Assembly: GCF_025452195.1 (NCBI RefSeq)
Contig: NZ_CP104973.1
Coordinates: forward strand, 1,178,001-1,242,000
DNA: 64,000 nt
Reading direction: 5' to 3'
Origin: Phyllobacterium zundukense
Lineage (GTDB): Bacteria; Pseudomonadota; Alphaproteobacteria; Rhizobiales; Rhizobiaceae
Made by a program: the position numbers and the translations under genes
Notes under the pieces: model-generated
Databases searched by the model: none
Seen by the model: only the letters and a program-made list of their open reading frames with translations
Told to the model about the DNA's origin: nothing
Shown here: positions 3,435 to 28,224 of the stretch, one piece after another
Layout: the number at the start of each line of letters is the position of its first letter
Position numbering within the stretch: position 1 is the stretch's first letter

Positions 3435-4391
3435 TCAGGCGCGGGGATGGGCTTTGGCGTAAATTTCCATCAATCGCTCCGTATCGACGCCGGTATAGAC
3501 CTGCGTCGTCGACAGGCTGGCGTGGCCGAGCAACTCCTGGATCGTGCGCAGATCGCCGCCGCGCCCCAGCAGATGCGTGGCAAACGAATGGCGCAAGGCG
3601 TGCGGTGTCGCCGTGTCTGGCAGGCCGAGCGCGCCGCGCATCTTCTGCATGTCACGCTGGATGATGGCCGGGTGCAGTTCGCCGCCGCGCGCGCCGCGAA
3701 ACAGCGGCCTGCCCTCTTCGAGATCGTAGGGACAGAGCGCGCGATATTCGGCAACGGCCCTGTGTACGACAGGCAGCAATGGCACCATGCGGGTCTTGCC
3801 ACCCTTGCCGGTAATCAGGATCGAGCGCGCATCCGGATCGGTCAGCGCGCCGCCATCGAGACCGAGCGCTTCGGAAATGCGCAAGCCGCAACCGTAAAGC
3901 AGGGTCAGAACCGCAGCATTGCGGGCCGCGATCCATGGTTCTTCGTTCAGCTGTTCGCCCTTCTCGACGACACGCCGCGCGTCCACCATCGTCAGCGGCT
4001 TGGGCAGGGATTTCGGCTGGCGCGGCGCCCGCATGGCGATCGAAGCAGCAGCGTTGGCCATGCCCTGCTTTTCGAGGAAGCGCAGAAATGAACGTATCCC
4101 GGCAAGCCCGCGGCCGAGCGTACGCGCACCGGCGCCGTCATTGCGCCGCCGCGCCAGAAATGAGCGCAGATCGGCGATCCGTAGTGTCGCCACGTCCTTC
4201 AGTGCTGGAGGTTCGCCGAGATGCCCGGTGAGAAACTGGAAGAACTGGCGTGTGTCGCGCTCATAGGCTTCCAATGTGTTGGCTGCCAGCCGCCGCGTGT
4301 TCTTCAGCGATTTCAGCCAGTTTTCGCGCGCATCGATCAGATCAGGTCGAGCGGAAACAAGAAACTGCTCGGTTTGTGGCTGGACGCCCAT
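3435..4391 (-). CDS. xerC: tyrosine recombinase XerC
   Basis: 318-aa site-specific recombinase of the XerC/XerD type that resolves chromosome dimers at dif, working with FtsK, which is encoded at 25.6 kb. The N-terminal SAM-like core-binding domain covers about residues 20-110 and the catalytic domain 130-310. The catalytic set is visible: R171 in CGLRISEAL, a lysine near 197 in TGKGGKTR, H264 and R267 in [14 protein letters not shown]290 in [11 protein letters not shown] and the nucleophile Y299. Length and motifs are normal. It is divergent from rimM. In related genomes xerC usually neighbours aroK-aroB rather than rimM. Confidence 0.95.
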
Positions 4392-21853: not shown

Positions 21854-22234
<381 letters not shown>

Positions 22235-22260
22235 TTTATTTGGGGTTCAAGGAGACAATA

Positions 22261-23685
22261 ATGAAAATTCCAACCAGTCTGACATCTGCGGCGCGCAGCA
22301 CCCTTCTCGGGTCGCTGGCACTGGTCGCTATCGGTACGCTGGCCGCATTCGCTCAGGAGGCCGCGCCAGCAGCTCCCGCCGCCGCAGCGCCAGCCTTCAC
22401 AGTCGACAAGGGCGACACCACCTGGATGATGATCTCGACAGTGCTTGTGCTGTTGATGACCATCCCTGGCCTCGCGCTTTTCTATGGCGGTCTTGTCCGC
22501 TCGAAGAACATGCTCTCGGTTCTCATGCAGGTCTTCACCATCACCGCTGTGGTGATGCTGATCTGGGTGTTCTACGGCTATAGCCTGGCCTTCACACCCG
22601 GCAATTCGTTTGTCGGTGGCCTGTCGAAGGCATTCTTGCAAGGCGTCGACGTGACGACGATGTCCGAAACCTTCACGAAGGGCGTTGCCATCCCCGAGCT
22701 GGTCTATGTCGTCTTCCAGATGACCTTCGCCTGCATTACGCCGGCGCTTATCGTCGGTGCGTTCGCTGAACGCGTGAAGTTCTCAGCGGTCATCCTGTTC
22801 GTCATTCTCTGGGTTACCTTCGTCTACTTCCCGATCGCTCACATGGTCTGGTTCTGGGGTGGTCCAAGCGCCTATTCCGATCCGTCCGGCCTGATCTTCG
22901 GCTTCGGCGCAATCGACTTTGCCGGTGGTACCGTCGTTCATATCAATGCGGGTATTGCAGGTCTCGTCGGCGCTCTGATGATCGGTAAGCGTACCGGCTA
23001 CAAGAAAGACATCATGGCACCGCACTCCATGACGATGACCATGATCGGTGCGTCATTGCTGTGGGTTGGCTGGTTCGGCTTCAATGCCGGTTCCAACCTC
23101 GAAGCCAATGCCTATGCGGGCCTTGCCATGATCAACACCTTTGTCGCAACGGCTGCTGCTGCGGTGATGTGGATCATCCTCGAATCCTTCCTGCGTGGTA
23201 AAGCCTCGATGCTCGGTGCCGTATCGGGTGCAGTTGCCGGTCTGGTTGCCGTTACCCCGGCTGCCGGTTTCGTCGGTCCGATGGGTGCCATCGTGCTCGG
23301 TGGGGTCGTCACCGTCGTCTGCTACTTCTTCGTCGCGGTGGTGAAGAACACGTTCGACTATGATGACAGCCTCGATGTCTTCGGCATCCATTGCGTCGGC
23401 GGCATCATCGGTGCTCTCGGCACCGGCATCCTCGTCAATCCGGCACTGGGTGGCGCCGGCATCGTCGATTATTCGACTGCCGATTTCGCCGCCAGCTATG
23501 CAGGTACGGCGACTCAGCTGTGGGCGCAGTTCAAGGGTGTCGCCGTGACACTGCTCTGGTCCGGTATCGGCAGCGCGATCCTTTACAAGATCGTCGATCT
23601 CATCGTCGGCCTGCGCGCATCGCCCGAATCAGAGCGTGAAGGCCTCGACCTCACCTCGCACGGTGAAGCTGCCTACCACAGCTGA
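22261..23685 (+). CDS. amtB: ammonium transporter AmtB
   Basis: 474-aa ammonium channel with a cleavable signal peptide (LLGSLALVAIGTLAAFA) followed by an Ala/Pro-rich linker and 11 membrane segments. Family signatures are FYGGLVRSKNML (near 75), AGGTVVHINAGIAGLVGAL with the first pore histidine region, and DDSLDVFGIHCVGGIIGALGTG with the second. The ATG at 22261 follows AAGGAGACAATA. It is co-transcribed with glnK. The last codons encode AAYHS, repeated in a second, diverged copy at 25205. Confidence 0.97.
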   Translation: MKIPTSLTSAARSTLLGSLALVAIGTLAAFAQEAAPAAPAAAAPAFTVDKGDTTWMMISTVLVLLMTIPGLALFYGGLVRSKNMLSVLMQVFTITAVVMLIWVFYGYSLAFTPGNSFVGGLSKAFLQGVDVTTMSETFTKGVAIPELVYVVFQMTFACITPALIVGAFAERVKFSAVILFVILWVTFVYFPIAHMVWFWGGPSAYSDPSGLIFGFGAIDFAGGTVVHINAGIAGLVGALMIGKRTGYKKDIMAPHSMTMTMIGASLLWVGWFGFNAGSNLEANAYAGLAMINTFVATAAAAVMWIILESFLRGKASMLGAVSGAVAGLVAVTPAAGFVGPMGAIVLGGVVTVVCYFFVAVVKNTFDYDDSLDVFGIHCVGGIIGALGTGILVNPALGGAGIVDYSTADFAASYAGTATQLWAQFKGVAVTLLWSGIGSAILYKIVDLIVGLRASPESEREGLDLTSHGEAAYHS

Positions 23686-23743
23686 TAGAAATACCTTGAA
23701 AAGAACCAGAAGGGCCCGGTTTCCGGGCCCTTTTCTTTTTGAG
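23668..23743 (+). repeat. direct repeat copy A: amtB 3' end plus terminator
   Basis: This 76-nt stretch holds the last five amtB codons, the stop, and the intrinsic terminator. It matches 25205-25283 at roughly four of five positions by eye, including an identical CACAGCTGATAGAA and TTGAAAAG. The two copies bracket the SDR/tetR pair. Confidence 0.85.
23710..23739 (+). terminator. intrinsic terminator after amtB
   Basis: AAGGGCCCGG pairs with CCGGGCCCTT over a short T loop, followed by TTCTTTTT, 25 bases after the amtB stop. Confidence 0.9.
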
Positions 23744-23757
23744 CATGGCGTCCCGGC

Positions 23758-24558
23758 TTAACTTGCGAGCGCTTTTTCAGGCTGATAACGATCGGCAGCG
23801 TGGACCTGCGCGTAATTCGGAATCATCAGCTGTCGAGCCATGTCGAAAGCCTTCCATTGATCGGCATCCGGAAGCGGCGGAATAGTCACGGACTCGCGAC
23901 GATCGAAGCCCACGAGCGCTGCGTCAACGAGTTCCTCTACTTCCATCACAGCCGGAAGTGCATTCACATCCCTGCCAGACCGCTCCCAGATTTCTGTTCG
24001 CGTTGCCGCCGGCAGCACCACCTGGACATACACGCCCTTTGGGCCAAGTTCGAGCTGGAGCCCCTGGCTGAGGAACAGCACGAATGCTTTTGTCGCTCCG
24101 TAGACGGTTAGACCAAACTCAGGAGCCAATCCAACAACCGAGGCGATATTGATGATCGACCCTGCCCCGGCTTCGATGAAACGTGGCGTAACAGCACTGA
24201 TCAGCCGGGTCAGCGCAGTCGTGTTGAGGCTTATGAGCTTGGCCACGTCGTCCGGCGTTTGATCGGCGAACCCGCCAGCTGCGCTGGCGCCGGCGTTGTT
24301 GATCAGTATGCCAATGCGCGCATCCTCACGTACGCGCGACTCCACCCTGGCCAGCTCAACCTCATCGGTGAGATCAGCTTGAAGGATATCGACATTGGCT
24401 CCGGTTTCACGGCGTAGGCGCTCGCTCAGCGTTTCCAATCGAGCCAGGTCTCGAGCAACCAATACCAGATCGTGCCCCCGTTTTGCGAAACGGTCGGCAT
24501 AAACAGCACCGATGCCCGTGGAGGCTCCGGTAATAAGGACGGTGGGTTTGGCTTTCAT
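23758..24558 (-). CDS. short-chain dehydrogenase/reductase
   Basis: 266-aa classical SDR. The NAD(P) motif is VLITGASTGIGAVYADRFA (residues 7-25), NNAG appears in ILINNAGASAAGG, and the catalytic set is S in INIASVVG, then YGATK (Y-x-x-x-K). Arginine residues after the first strand (VLVARDLARL) suggest NADPH preference. The substrate is unknown. It is divergent from the tetR gene at 24661 with tandem operators in the gap, so it is likely the regulator's target. The pair interrupts the usual amtB-ftsK neighbourhood. Confidence 0.9.
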   Translation of the reverse strand: MKAKPTVLITGASTGIGAVYADRFAKRGHDLVLVARDLARLETLSERLRRETGANVDILQADLTDEVELARVESRVREDARIGILINNAGASAAGGFADQTPDDVAKLISLNTTALTRLISAVTPRFIEAGAGSIINIASVVGLAPEFGLTVYGATKAFVLFLSQGLQLELGPKGVYVQVVLPAATRTEIWERSGRDVNALPAVMEVEELVDAALVGFDRRESVTIPPLPDADQWKAFDMARQLMIPNYAQVHAADRYQPEKALAS

Positions 24559-24586
24559 TGCTTTTTCCTTGAGTTTGGATTATTAA

Positions 24587-24631
24587 TCATGATCGTCATC
24601 ATGTTTAGTGTATTCATGATCGCTATCATGA
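24587..24631. promoter_or_regulatory. tandem palindromic operators in the SDR/tetR gap
   Basis: Two 18-bp palindromes lie 27 bp apart, centre to centre: TCATGATCGTCATCATGT at 24587-24604 and TCATGATCGCTATCATGA at 24614-24631. The half-site is TCATGAT. They lie in the 102-base gap between divergent starts, the standard position for autorepression by a TetR protein. Binding is inferred. Confidence 0.75.
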
Positions 24632-24660
24632 TTAAAGTCAAGTGAAAAATCGAGGACGTA

Positions 24661-25203
24661 ATGAAAGTCAGTCGTGAGCGAGTGGCGGAAAACCGGCAAA
24701 AGATCCTGGAGGCGGCTGGCAGGCTTTTCAGGGCCCACGGATTCGAGGCGGTGACGGTGGCGGATGTGATGAAGGCGGCGTCTCTCACCCATGGCGCTTT
24801 TTATGGGCACTTCAATTCGAAAGATGACCTGATCGTTCAAACCCTGGCCCACATCGTTTCAGCCGGGATACCGGAGGACCTCGATCTGACGCGGTACGCG
24901 GCGACCTACCTTTCGGAAAGTCACCGAGATGATATCGCAGGCGGATGTCCAACGGCGGGGCTGGCCGGCCAAACCATCCATCAATCGCCAGAGGCCCGTG
25001 CAGCGATGACGGCAGGCTTGCGAGAGCACATCGAGCGCCTGAGTCGCTCGGCTCCTGGGGCAACTGCGGAAAACAAACGTCGGGCTGCCATTGGGAGCTG
25101 GGCGGCGATGGTGGGAGCAGTCATCTTGGCCCGGATGAGCGATGACCCGAATTTGTCTGATGAACTGCTGTCGCAGACGCGTGAGTGGATTAGCCCGAAG
25201 TGA
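24661..25203 (+). CDS. TetR family regulator
   Basis: 180-aa repressor. The N-terminal helix-turn-helix domain is RQKILEAAGRLFRAHGFEAV followed by TVADVMKAASLTHGAFYGHF (residues 12-52), typical of TetR proteins controlling an adjacent oxidoreductase. The C-terminal ligand domain begins near residue 75 and has the GCPTAGLAGQ segment common in this branch. The start follows GAGGACG. It probably controls the divergent SDR gene and itself. One base after its stop begins the second amtB 3'-end copy. Confidence 0.9.
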   Translation: MKVSRERVAENRQKILEAAGRLFRAHGFEAVTVADVMKAASLTHGAFYGHFNSKDDLIVQTLAHIVSAGIPEDLDLTRYAATYLSESHRDDIAGGCPTAGLAGQTIHQSPEARAAMTAGLREHIERLSRSAPGATAENKRRAAIGSWAAMVGAVILARMSDDPNLSDELLSQTREWISPK

Positions 25204-25204
25204 C

Positions 25205-25283
25205 GCCGCGTATCACAGCTGATAGAACAATCTTGAAAAGGAGCAGCAGGGCCGGGTTTTCCGGGGCTCTTTTTTGTTTTGAG
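25205..25283 (+). repeat. direct repeat copy B: remnant of a second amtB 3' end
   Basis: The frame GCC GCG TAT CAC AGC TGA encodes AAYHS-stop, the same end as AmtB (GCT GCC TAC CAC AGC TGA) with third-base changes only. It is followed by a terminator-like AGGGCCGGGTTTTCCGGGGC and a T run. It begins one base after the tetR stop, so it may now serve as tetR's terminator. It marks the right border of an inserted segment. Confidence 0.85.
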
Positions 25284-25315
25284 AGCCACCTCTCTTGCCG
25301 GGGGAAAGAAATTCC

Positions 25316-25450
25316 CTGCGTGGTTCGACAAGCTCACCATGAGGGAGGTTGTTGTGCTGCAACTGGCGATGATCATCGCCTACACTCCAGAACTTGACTC
25401 TCTGCAATCCACACAACTCCCTCATGGTGAGCTTGTCGAACCACGCACAG
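25316..25450. repeat. palindromic repeat copy 2
   Basis: About 135 nt between the tetR end and ftsK. Left arm CTGCGTGGTTCGAC then AAGCTCACCATGAGGGAG; the right arm is its reverse complement ending ACCACGCACAG. The loop carries TCTGCAATCCAC, also seen in copy 1. It belongs to the same family as copies at 9.8, 29.4, 52.6 and 53.7 kb. Confidence 0.9.
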
Positions 25451-25498
25451 CGCCTTTACCGCTGATCCTGCTAATTTCGTCCCACTCATTCCCCATGG

Positions 25499-25514
25499 TT
25501 AATGGCCCCTTAAC
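25499..25514 (+). promoter_or_regulatory. candidate CtrA binding site upstream of ftsK
   Basis: TTAATGGCCCCTTAAC matches TTAA-N7-TTAAC exactly, and it is centred about 93 bases before the ftsK start. CtrA control of division genes is established in Caulobacter and Sinorhizobium, so the position makes sense, but binding is inferred from the motif alone. Confidence 0.55.
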
Positions 25515-25599
25515 CATCCGCACCGTAACGTCAGAATCAACTCTATGATTTGCGGCTGCTCGCAGCCGTTCTGTATGCGTTCACGCGGGGCCGGATTTC

Positions 25600-28224
25600 A
25601 TGCGTCAAGGATACCTTTCCTCCTATGCCATTGAAGATCAGCGAACCGGGTTATCCAGCCTGTTTCGCAGGCAGATTCATATCCTGTGGGGGCTGGGACT
25701 TATCGGCTTCGTGGCCTTTGCCATCGGCAGCCTCGCCACCTGGAACGTGCTCGATCCAAGCTTCAGTCACGCCACGTCGAATCCGACCCGCAATGCCCTC
25801 GGTTATCCCGGTGCGGTCTTCGCCGATCTCGGCATGCAGTTCTTCGGTCTTTCCATGGTTGTGGCACTGATGCCGGCGCTTTTCTGGGGCGGGCTCTTTC
25901 TCACAGGGCGTGGTGTCGACCGTATGCCGCGCCGGGCCGTCGCCTGGCTTTGCGCGTCGCTTCTGGCTGCGGCGATCGCCGGCTGCTTCGCCATACCGGA
26001 AAGCTGGCCAATGCCTATTGGTCTTGGCGGTGTCTTTGGTGATATGGTCCTCAAGATACCCGGCATCTTTATCGGCACGTTCCCCCGTGGTGGTCTGGCC
26101 ATGATCATGGTTGCCATTCTTGCCATCCCGACCCTTTGGATCTTTGGCTTTGCCAGTGGCATCACCTACCGTGACAGCGAACCGGTGGTCACCAAGAAGT
26201 CCACGCGCCACGTCGCCGAAGATGATGACTACGACGACGAGGATGATGATGACGATCGCGGAGGCGGTGGCCTGCTCGCTCTCGGCGCCTTGACCCATTG
26301 GTTCCTGAGCACGAAAGCCCTGTTCCGCCGGTTTTCCGGTCGTAGCGCCGGGCTCTATAGCAGCGCACGCAGTATCGGCTCGCGGCATGACGGTGATTTC
26401 CCTGACGTTGCGGTTTCGCGTCAGAAAAGCGCCCAGACCGATGGCCGGCGCGAGCCCGGCTTCTACGACGAAGCACCACAAATCGAGGCGCCTTCAATCG
26501 ATATCGGCAGGGATGAATTCGACGGCCGCTTCGATCCGGTCGCCTTCAGCGATGAAGAGGATGTCGACGATTGGGCGCTGCAGTCAGCCCCGGCAAGACC
26601 GACGGCGATTCCGAACAGGCCAGTTGCCGCACGCATTGATACACCGGCACCTGCGCCGCGGGCCGGCGCGCGCGTTCAGCGCGAGGCGCAGGCGTCGTTG
26701 ATTGCATCCGACGAATACGAGATGCCTTCGTTGCATTTCCTGAGCGAACCGAAGAACGTTGTGCGCAATCCGGGCCTTTCCAAAGAGGCTTTGGAACAGA
26801 ACGCGCGGCTGCTGGAAGGTGTGCTTGAGGATTTCGGCGTGCGCGGCGAAATCATCCATGTACGTCCGGGTCCAGTGGTAACGCTCTATGAACTGGAACC
26901 GGCGCCGGGGATCAAATCGTCGCGGGTCATCACCCTCGCCGACGATATCGCCCGCTCCATGAGCGCGATTGCCGCGCGTGTCGCCGTTGTGCCCGGTCGC
27001 AATGCCATCGGTATCGAGCTCCCGAACCAGACGCGCGAAATGGTCTATCTGCGTGAACTTCTGGCAAGCCGCGATTTTGAGCAGACAAAGACCAAATTGG
27101 CGCTTGCCCTTGGAAAGACCATCAATGGCGAGGCGGTTATCGCGGACCTTGCGAAAATGCCGCATTTGCTGGTCGCCGGCACCACGGGTTCGGGCAAGTC
27201 CGTTGCGATCAATACGATGATCCTTTCGCTGCTTTACCGGATGACGCCGGAGCAGTGCCGCCTGATCATGATCGACCCGAAAATGCTCGAACTGTCGATC
27301 TACGATGGCATTCCGCATCTGTTGACGCCTGTCGTCACCGATCCGAAAAAGGCCGTCGTCGCGCTGAAGTGGACGGTCAAGGAGATGGAAGACCGCTACC
27401 GCAAGATGTCGAAAGTCGGCGTGCGCAATATTGACGGCTTCAATCAGCGGGTCGAGCAGGCCCACAAAAAGGGTGAGCGTATTGCCCGGACGGTACAGAC
27501 CGGCTTTGATCGTGCAACGGGCGAAGCCGTCTACGAGACCGAAGAGCTCGACCTGAAGCCGATGCCCTATATCGTCGTCATAATCGATGAAATGGCCGAC
27601 CTGATGATGGTCGCCGGCAAGGATATTGAAGGCGCGGTACAGCGGTTGGCTCAGATGGCGCGCGCCGCCGGTATCCACGTGATCATGGCGACGCAGCGTC
27701 CATCGGTCGATGTCATTACCGGCACGATCAAAGCCAATTTTCCGACTCGTATTTCGTTCCAGGTTACATCGAAGATCGATTCGCGAACGATCCTTGGCGA
27801 GCAGGGCGGCGAGCAGCTGCTCGGCATGGGCGATATGCTCTATATGGCCGGCGGCGGCCGCATCCAGCGCGTGCACGGACCATTTGTCGGGGACGATGAA
27901 GTAGAGAAGATCGTCCAGCACCTGAAACTGCAGGGCGTTCCGGAATATCTCGATTCCATTACAGAGGAAGACGACGAAGACGAAGGTGGCGGACCAGCGG
28001 GAACATCCAATCTCGAAGATTCGGACGATCCCTATGACCAGGCTGTCGCGGTCGTTCTACGCGACAAGAAGGCGTCAACGAGTTATATCCAGCGCCGGCT
28101 CGGCATTGGTTACAACCGCGCCGCTTCGATCATCGAGCGTATGGAACAGGAAGGACTAGTTGGCCCCGCCAACCATGCGGGTAAACGCGAGATTCTCGTG
28201 CCGACACAGGATGACGAGTTCTAG
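25600..28224 (+). CDS. ftsK: DNA translocase FtsK
   Basis: 874-aa septal DNA pump that clears chromosome ends and activates XerCD at dif. Four membrane segments lie in residues 25-190. A low-complexity linker with an acidic run ([12 protein letters not shown]) spans roughly 200-370. The motor follows, with Walker [16 protein letters not shown] near residue 527 and Walker [15 protein letters not shown] near 650. The C-terminal gamma winged helix, [20 protein letters not shown], reads KOPS sites. Length is normal. The partner recombinase XerC is at 3.4 kb. Confidence 0.97.

Follow-up and report, generated by a model that had tools for sequence, protein, structure and literature searches.

An SDR–TetR gene pair enclosed by two copies of the amtB 3′ end in a Phyllobacterium species complex

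Integrative elements that target the 3′ ends of tRNA genes or of other genes duplicate the tail of their target and leave the target gene intact. The locus described here, located between amtB and ftsK in a 64,000-nt stretch of Phyllobacterium DNA (the window), shares with such elements the duplicated target tail around the insert and the intact target gene. However, it has no recombinase gene nearby, does not recur at the site and its two ends are not identical. A second kind of displacement, for which homology-facilitated illegitimate recombination has been proposed, is described for the T6SS immunity arrays of Vibrio cholerae and for the “orphaned” 3′ regions of Rhs genes (PMC5361080). There, as here, a new module follows the conserved part of a gene and the old 3′ part is found moved downstream. 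In contrast to those cases, the anchor here would be a housekeeping transporter gene, amtB has kept its length, and an oxidoreductase and its repressor take the place of an effector–immunity pair as cargo. Finally, divergent SDR/TetR pairs with the same gene order, related protein sequences and a twin operator of the ATCATGAT type are common in Alphaproteobacteria and Burkholderiales; the pair examined here differs from these in its location between amtB and ftsK and in the amtB-derived end of its tetR. The locus adds a small, if neat, example to an already known kind of gene gain. It represents a well-preserved fossil of such a gain in which no integrase or transposase is recognisable, and a single genus provides the filled site, empty sites and a site with an alternative insert.

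The features of the locus are listed in Table 1. The last codons of amtB and the terminator following them occur twice, as a direct, ungapped repeat of 76 nt with an identity of 78% in the repeat search and 80% in the genome search. When the whole 6.4 Mb genome was searched with the amtB tail, the tail itself (e-value of 9.2e-58) and the second copy, END2 (e-value of 7.6e-13), were recovered, whereas the best of 13 further matches had an e-value of 2.35. This corroborates the duplication reported in the first-pass annotation, and END2 is nearer to an amtB 3′ end than to random terminators. The placement of the second copy has to be corrected, however: it had been said to start one base after the tetR stop codon, but the alignment begins at 25200, and the TGA of tetR (25201–25203) falls within the repeat. 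END2 has kept a coding remnant, which reads D-A-A-Y-H-S-stop in the window and E-A-A-Y-H-S-stop in relatives. Both copies are also present in three relatives, P. trifolii, P. bourgognense and Ca. P. onerii, which together with the window species are referred to as the complex. An origin of END2 from an amtB paralogue was rejected, as the whole-genome search gave no third copy. An extension of the repeat past the terminator was rejected as well, since the local similarity found there (CATGGC) was no better than in shuffled sequences (434 to 1283 of 2000); these shuffles, as well as those for the second END and for the flanks mentioned below, preserve base composition only.

Table 1. Features of the amtB–ftsK region, in window positions.
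Feature	Position	Strand	Basis
amtB, intact, ends G-E-A-A-Y-H-S-stop	22261..23685	+	ORF 22231-23685, ATG start at 22261
END1, amtB 3′ end and intrinsic terminator, copy 1	23663..23738	+	repeat search, genome search, folding
Short linker, END1 terminator to SDR stop	23739..23757		sequence reading
SDR oxidoreductase, 266 aa	23758..24558	-	ORF, PF00106
Common promoter/operator region, twin palindromes, arms 24583-24603 and 24615-24635	24559..24660		repeat search, motif
TetR-family repressor, 180 aa, stop codon within END2	24661..25203	+	ORF, PF00440
END2, second amtB 3′ end and terminator, fused to tetR 3′ end	25200..25275	+	repeat search, genome search, folding
amtB–ftsK intergenic DNA like that of P. 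sp. 2063	25276..25599		repeat search, shuffle-tested alignment
ftsK	25600..28224	+	ORF

The terminator of END1 in the window folds with −28.9 kcal/mol (z −5.5), that of END2 with −14.7 kcal/mol (z −0.25). In the three relatives, the END2 terminator reaches z-values of −2.7, −3.7 and −4.3; it is decayed in the window genome and well formed in the others. The END1 stem is terminator-like on the minus strand too, where it faces the SDR gene, whose stop codon lies 17–24 nt beyond END1 (78-nt version) in the carriers of the pair. The two copies were probably near-identical when formed, because in Ca. P. onerii they are still 94% identical and share an exact run of 40 nt. Their identity is 87% in P. 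trifolii and P. bourgognense and 77% in the window, and the longest exact run common to the copies of the window is at most 14 nt. Further, the spacer between stop codon and terminator of END2 is of the type found in END1 of the complex and unlike the spacer in the seven further Phyllobacterium genomes that were aligned in addition to G004, a close relative lacking the pair. This likeness suggests that the copies probably came from within the complex, and a distant donor for END2 was rejected on the same grounds. The identity to the single END of G004 is 82–90% for END1 and 82–89% for END2, so that neither copy stands out as the newcomer.

The two sides of the insert have different structures. 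On the left, amtB continues in frame into END1 in all four carriers. The right joint is non-homologous: tetR is fused to amtB codons, and the repeat supplies its stop codon. Residue 177 of TetR is the last position identical in all six sequences aligned; three residues follow, and then the TGA belonging to the amtB-derived repeat, which is the out-of-frame TGA of the Gly-Glu codons (GGTGAA) of amtB. For gene finding, this accounts for the amtB codons at the end of tetR. The four carriers have the same sequence at the joint between tetR and END2. The nearest relatives of tetR continue for nine (P. brassicacearum) or four (P. sp. 2063) further residues and end in unrelated DNA without an amtB end. 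A truncation of tetR at the joint is likely but not proven, because the protein measures anything between 179 and 202 aa in the 80 loci compared. The motif GCACGG is common to the tetR relatives and amtB; the joint itself reads otherwise, and there is no clean crossover at that motif.

Downstream of END2, the DNA of the window resembles the amtB–ftsK gap of P. sp. 2063, with an alignment score reached by none of 2000 shuffles; against seven other relatives, the scores were reached by 109 (G005, a borderline value) and by 496 to 1770 (the remaining six, no match) of 2000 shuffles. Given the match to P. sp. 2063, both amtB with END1 and END2 with the gap and ftsK look like native neighbours in the window. 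The gap also contains, at window positions 25317–25447, a palindromic element whose perfectly matching inverted arms of 31 nt enclose 69 nt. This element is dispersed, has many matches across genus genomes and is present in the amtB–ftsK gap of P. sp. 2063 as well. In P. trifolii, where an extra ORF is situated behind END2, the DNA immediately following this END matches none of four relatives (scores reached by 173 to 1670 of 2000 shuffles). This ORF of approx. 127 aa is found between END2 and ftsK in the three other carriers (L188/G001, L189/G010, L190 and L191/G018) and has no Pfam or NCBIfam match. It occurs in three of 19 genus genomes, at this site only, and was matched in two pieces in P. 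trifolii.

Loci related to this one come from Phyllobacterium. The SDR/tetR pair together with both ENDs was found between amtB and ftsK in four of 20 genus genomes, namely the window genome, P. trifolii CECT 7015 (G018), P. bourgognense 31-25a (G001) and Ca. P. onerii IY22 (G010). A second END was detected in the gap of each of these four (score reached by 0/300 shuffles in each) and was absent from the gap of the remaining 16 (score reached by at least 18/300 shuffles). The gap measures 1914–2286 nt in the carriers, 1385 nt in G004, 347–772 nt in five genomes and 179–268 nt in ten; these last ten, with one END each, present a short empty site. Accordingly, the insertion between amtB and ftsK which kept a second amtB end, as the first-pass annotation had suggested, is borne out by relatives without the cassette, and pair and duplication are by no means general in the genus. 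The other gap inserts, including that of G004, lack a second END.

For the family, the 30 loci with the best FtsK matches of 121 genomes searched were fetched. In 21 of these, the flank includes amtB, which precedes ftsK in the same orientation (one of the other nine is the window itself, and L159, among the 21, is G013 again). Their gaps comprise 14 of 160–311 nt, one of 444 nt and six of 760–1260 nt, and a second END was absent from all 21 (score reached by at least 14/300 shuffles). Thus, in genus and family, amtB and ftsK are often neighbours and the gap accepts inserts, but the duplicated END was seen only in this complex. A search of 297 family genomes with an exact pattern of the amtB tail matched G000 (both ENDs) and G013 only; the pattern is too strict, having missed three other genus genomes sampled, and G001, G010 and G018 were outside that sample. 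In L151 (G014), the ftsK frame stops after approx. 426 codons in the assembly, pointing to a frameshift or a sequencing error. A search of the available literature found no paper naming Phyllobacterium, amtB and ftsK together.

As the best explanation, to which we give about an even chance, we propose one-sided (homology-facilitated illegitimate) recombination, by which the SDR–TetR pair would have entered the amtB–ftsK gap once within the complex, with its left anchor in amtB and an illegitimate right joint. The DNA received from a relative, consisting of an amtB end followed by the autoregulated pair, would have paired with the resident amtB on the left, whereas on the right a position near the 3′ end of tetR would have been joined illegitimately to a position approx. 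23 nt before the resident amtB stop codon. The resident amtB end and its terminator would thereby have been displaced behind tetR, providing it with a stop codon and a terminator, and amtB would have stayed intact. Such an event would explain why the left side is seamless and the right side abrupt, why amtB is intact, why END2 is of local origin and why gap-like DNA follows it in the window. We infer that recombination took place at the seamless amtB–END1 side; the linear donor, the order of the joints and the anchor in amtB are likewise parts of the mechanism which we infer. Among the loci searched, no donor was found with a tetR next to amtB that extends beyond the joint, and it counts against one-sided recombination that the DNA following END2 clearly matches the gap of one relative only, that the joint shows no clean microhomology and that the length of tetR varies. 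Most likely, this was a single event in one species complex and not the use of a recurrent att site, because a second END was not found in the 16 other genus genomes or the 21 family loci. The tetR joint common to the four carriers also suggests that one event was inherited and that the site was not targeted repeatedly. Should the mechanism hold, such events could be counted genome-wide by simple searches for gene tails duplicated next to accessory genes.

Alternatively, a tandem duplication of the amtB 3′ part would have come first, the pair having landed in the duplicate and a deletion having left only its tail. In agreement with this course, END2 is of the same local type as END1 and is followed by gap-like DNA in the window. 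A 7-nt sequence at the tetR joint, GCCCGAA, recurs (by eye) slightly upstream within amtB, as a shortened longer duplicate could leave it. However, this course requires at least two events, and in the 16 pair-less genus genomes the gap holds no second amtB tail; we regard it as unlikely.

The direct-repeat topology and the exact run of 40 nt in Ca. P. onerii would be consistent with a circle carrying one amtB end and the pair, which would have integrated by a RecA-dependent single crossover at the END (Campbell type) and could leave by the same route. In Ca. P. onerii, moreover, the segment that begins at the amtB end and covers most of SDR has diverged more than the DNA around it, with 83–92% identity to the other carriers in 150-nt windows as against 94–98% for tetR. 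This difference suggests that the locus recombines and that the cassette has probably recombined since its arrival. On the other hand, a repeat of 76 nt is short for homologous integration, END2 alone had no match in 72,556 plasmid records, no plasmid match to the pair reaches either END among the matches listed (overlapping sets of 20 and 60), and the phage search gave one partial match only. A circular donor appears quite doubtful.

That a site-specific integrative element targeted the amtB 3′ end, its integrase having been lost or acting in trans, appears very improbable, even though a duplicated tail leaving the target gene intact is what tRNA- and gene-3′-end elements produce. The nearest match to the tyrosine-recombinase family PF00589 lies about 20 kb away, none of the seven matches to the serine-recombinase family PF00239 is on this contig, and between the ENDs, where the two main ORFs are SDR and tetR, no integrase or recombinase was found. 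Other inserts in the gap are without a second END (0/16 other genus genomes, 0/21 family loci), and exact runs common to both ENDs of the window do not exceed 14 nt. Taken together with the one common tetR joint, this speaks against the element targeting a gene 3′ end that the first-pass annotation had in mind, and site-specific integration was rejected as the best reading. The distant PF00589 match itself (window 3477–3932, minus strand) belongs to a Phage_integrase-domain protein with an open frame of 323 aa, which we take to be the size of a XerC/XerD recombinase. We see just as slim a chance that the pair is an integrase-free mobile cassette, which host recombination between END1 and END2 would excise precisely and which would reinsert at any amtB end of the complex. 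The tail of a housekeeping gene would then act as a do-it-yourself attachment site, and in G004 the lone END beside a different cassette would be the scar of such a loss. Transposition was rejected, as there is neither a transposase gene between the ENDs (no third main ORF) nor a terminal repeat (none of the three inverted-repeat pairs found brackets the cassette), and 76 nt is far longer than the usual transposon target-site duplications.

The gap of G004 is occupied by a different pair, the mobile mystery proteins B (Fic) and A (helix-turn-helix), both above the NCBIfam cut-off (L007:438-1480), with the single END beside it; an SDR/tetR pair elsewhere in G004 is not among the matches listed. 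Its amtB is 96–98% identical to that of the four carriers. In the rpoB tree (without support values), G004 stands beside the four carriers. In the ftsK tree, it is placed within the complex, with a support of 97 for the split leaving the window genome outside the other four, and in the amtB tree it falls within the carriers (support 61–82). Except for the value of 97 in the ftsK tree, support for the species order of the five close genomes is mostly low (16–82). With the pair-less G004 inside the complex, as in the ftsK tree, a single entry of the pair additionally requires that G004 subsequently lost or replaced it. However, as the rpoB and ftsK trees disagree, a loss in G004 and an original absence cannot be told apart.

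Judged by its relatives, the pair is an old divergent SDR–TetR module, ordinary in itself. A profile search assigned the two proteins to their families (see Table 1), and the SDR protein resembles the solved enzymes 4bmv (e-value of 9.1e-112) and 6zdz (e-value of 5.2e-107). A relative of TetR was present at 123 genome loci, the best 80 of which (L039–L118) were compared: a divergent SDR gene lies beside the TetR relative in 76 of these 80, two of them weak (L055, L079), and only the Phyllobacterium loci L039–L041 have amtB and ftsK nearby. P. brassicacearum and P. sp. 2063 carry the pair elsewhere in the genome, with a DNA identity of 83% and 78%, respectively. Plasmid relatives were found in 126 of the 72,556 records, 115 of them at 60–80% identity. 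By analogy with such pairs, TetR likely keeps both genes repressed and would be released by a small ligand, which may be a substrate of SDR. The putative operator for this is the intergenic twin palindrome of the ATCATGAT type, which was found at 74 of the 80 loci (mean of 0.0 in shuffles, 0/80 in the coding control). Kept across SDR–TetR loci of Alphaproteobacteria and Burkholderiales, it offers a ready regulon marker.
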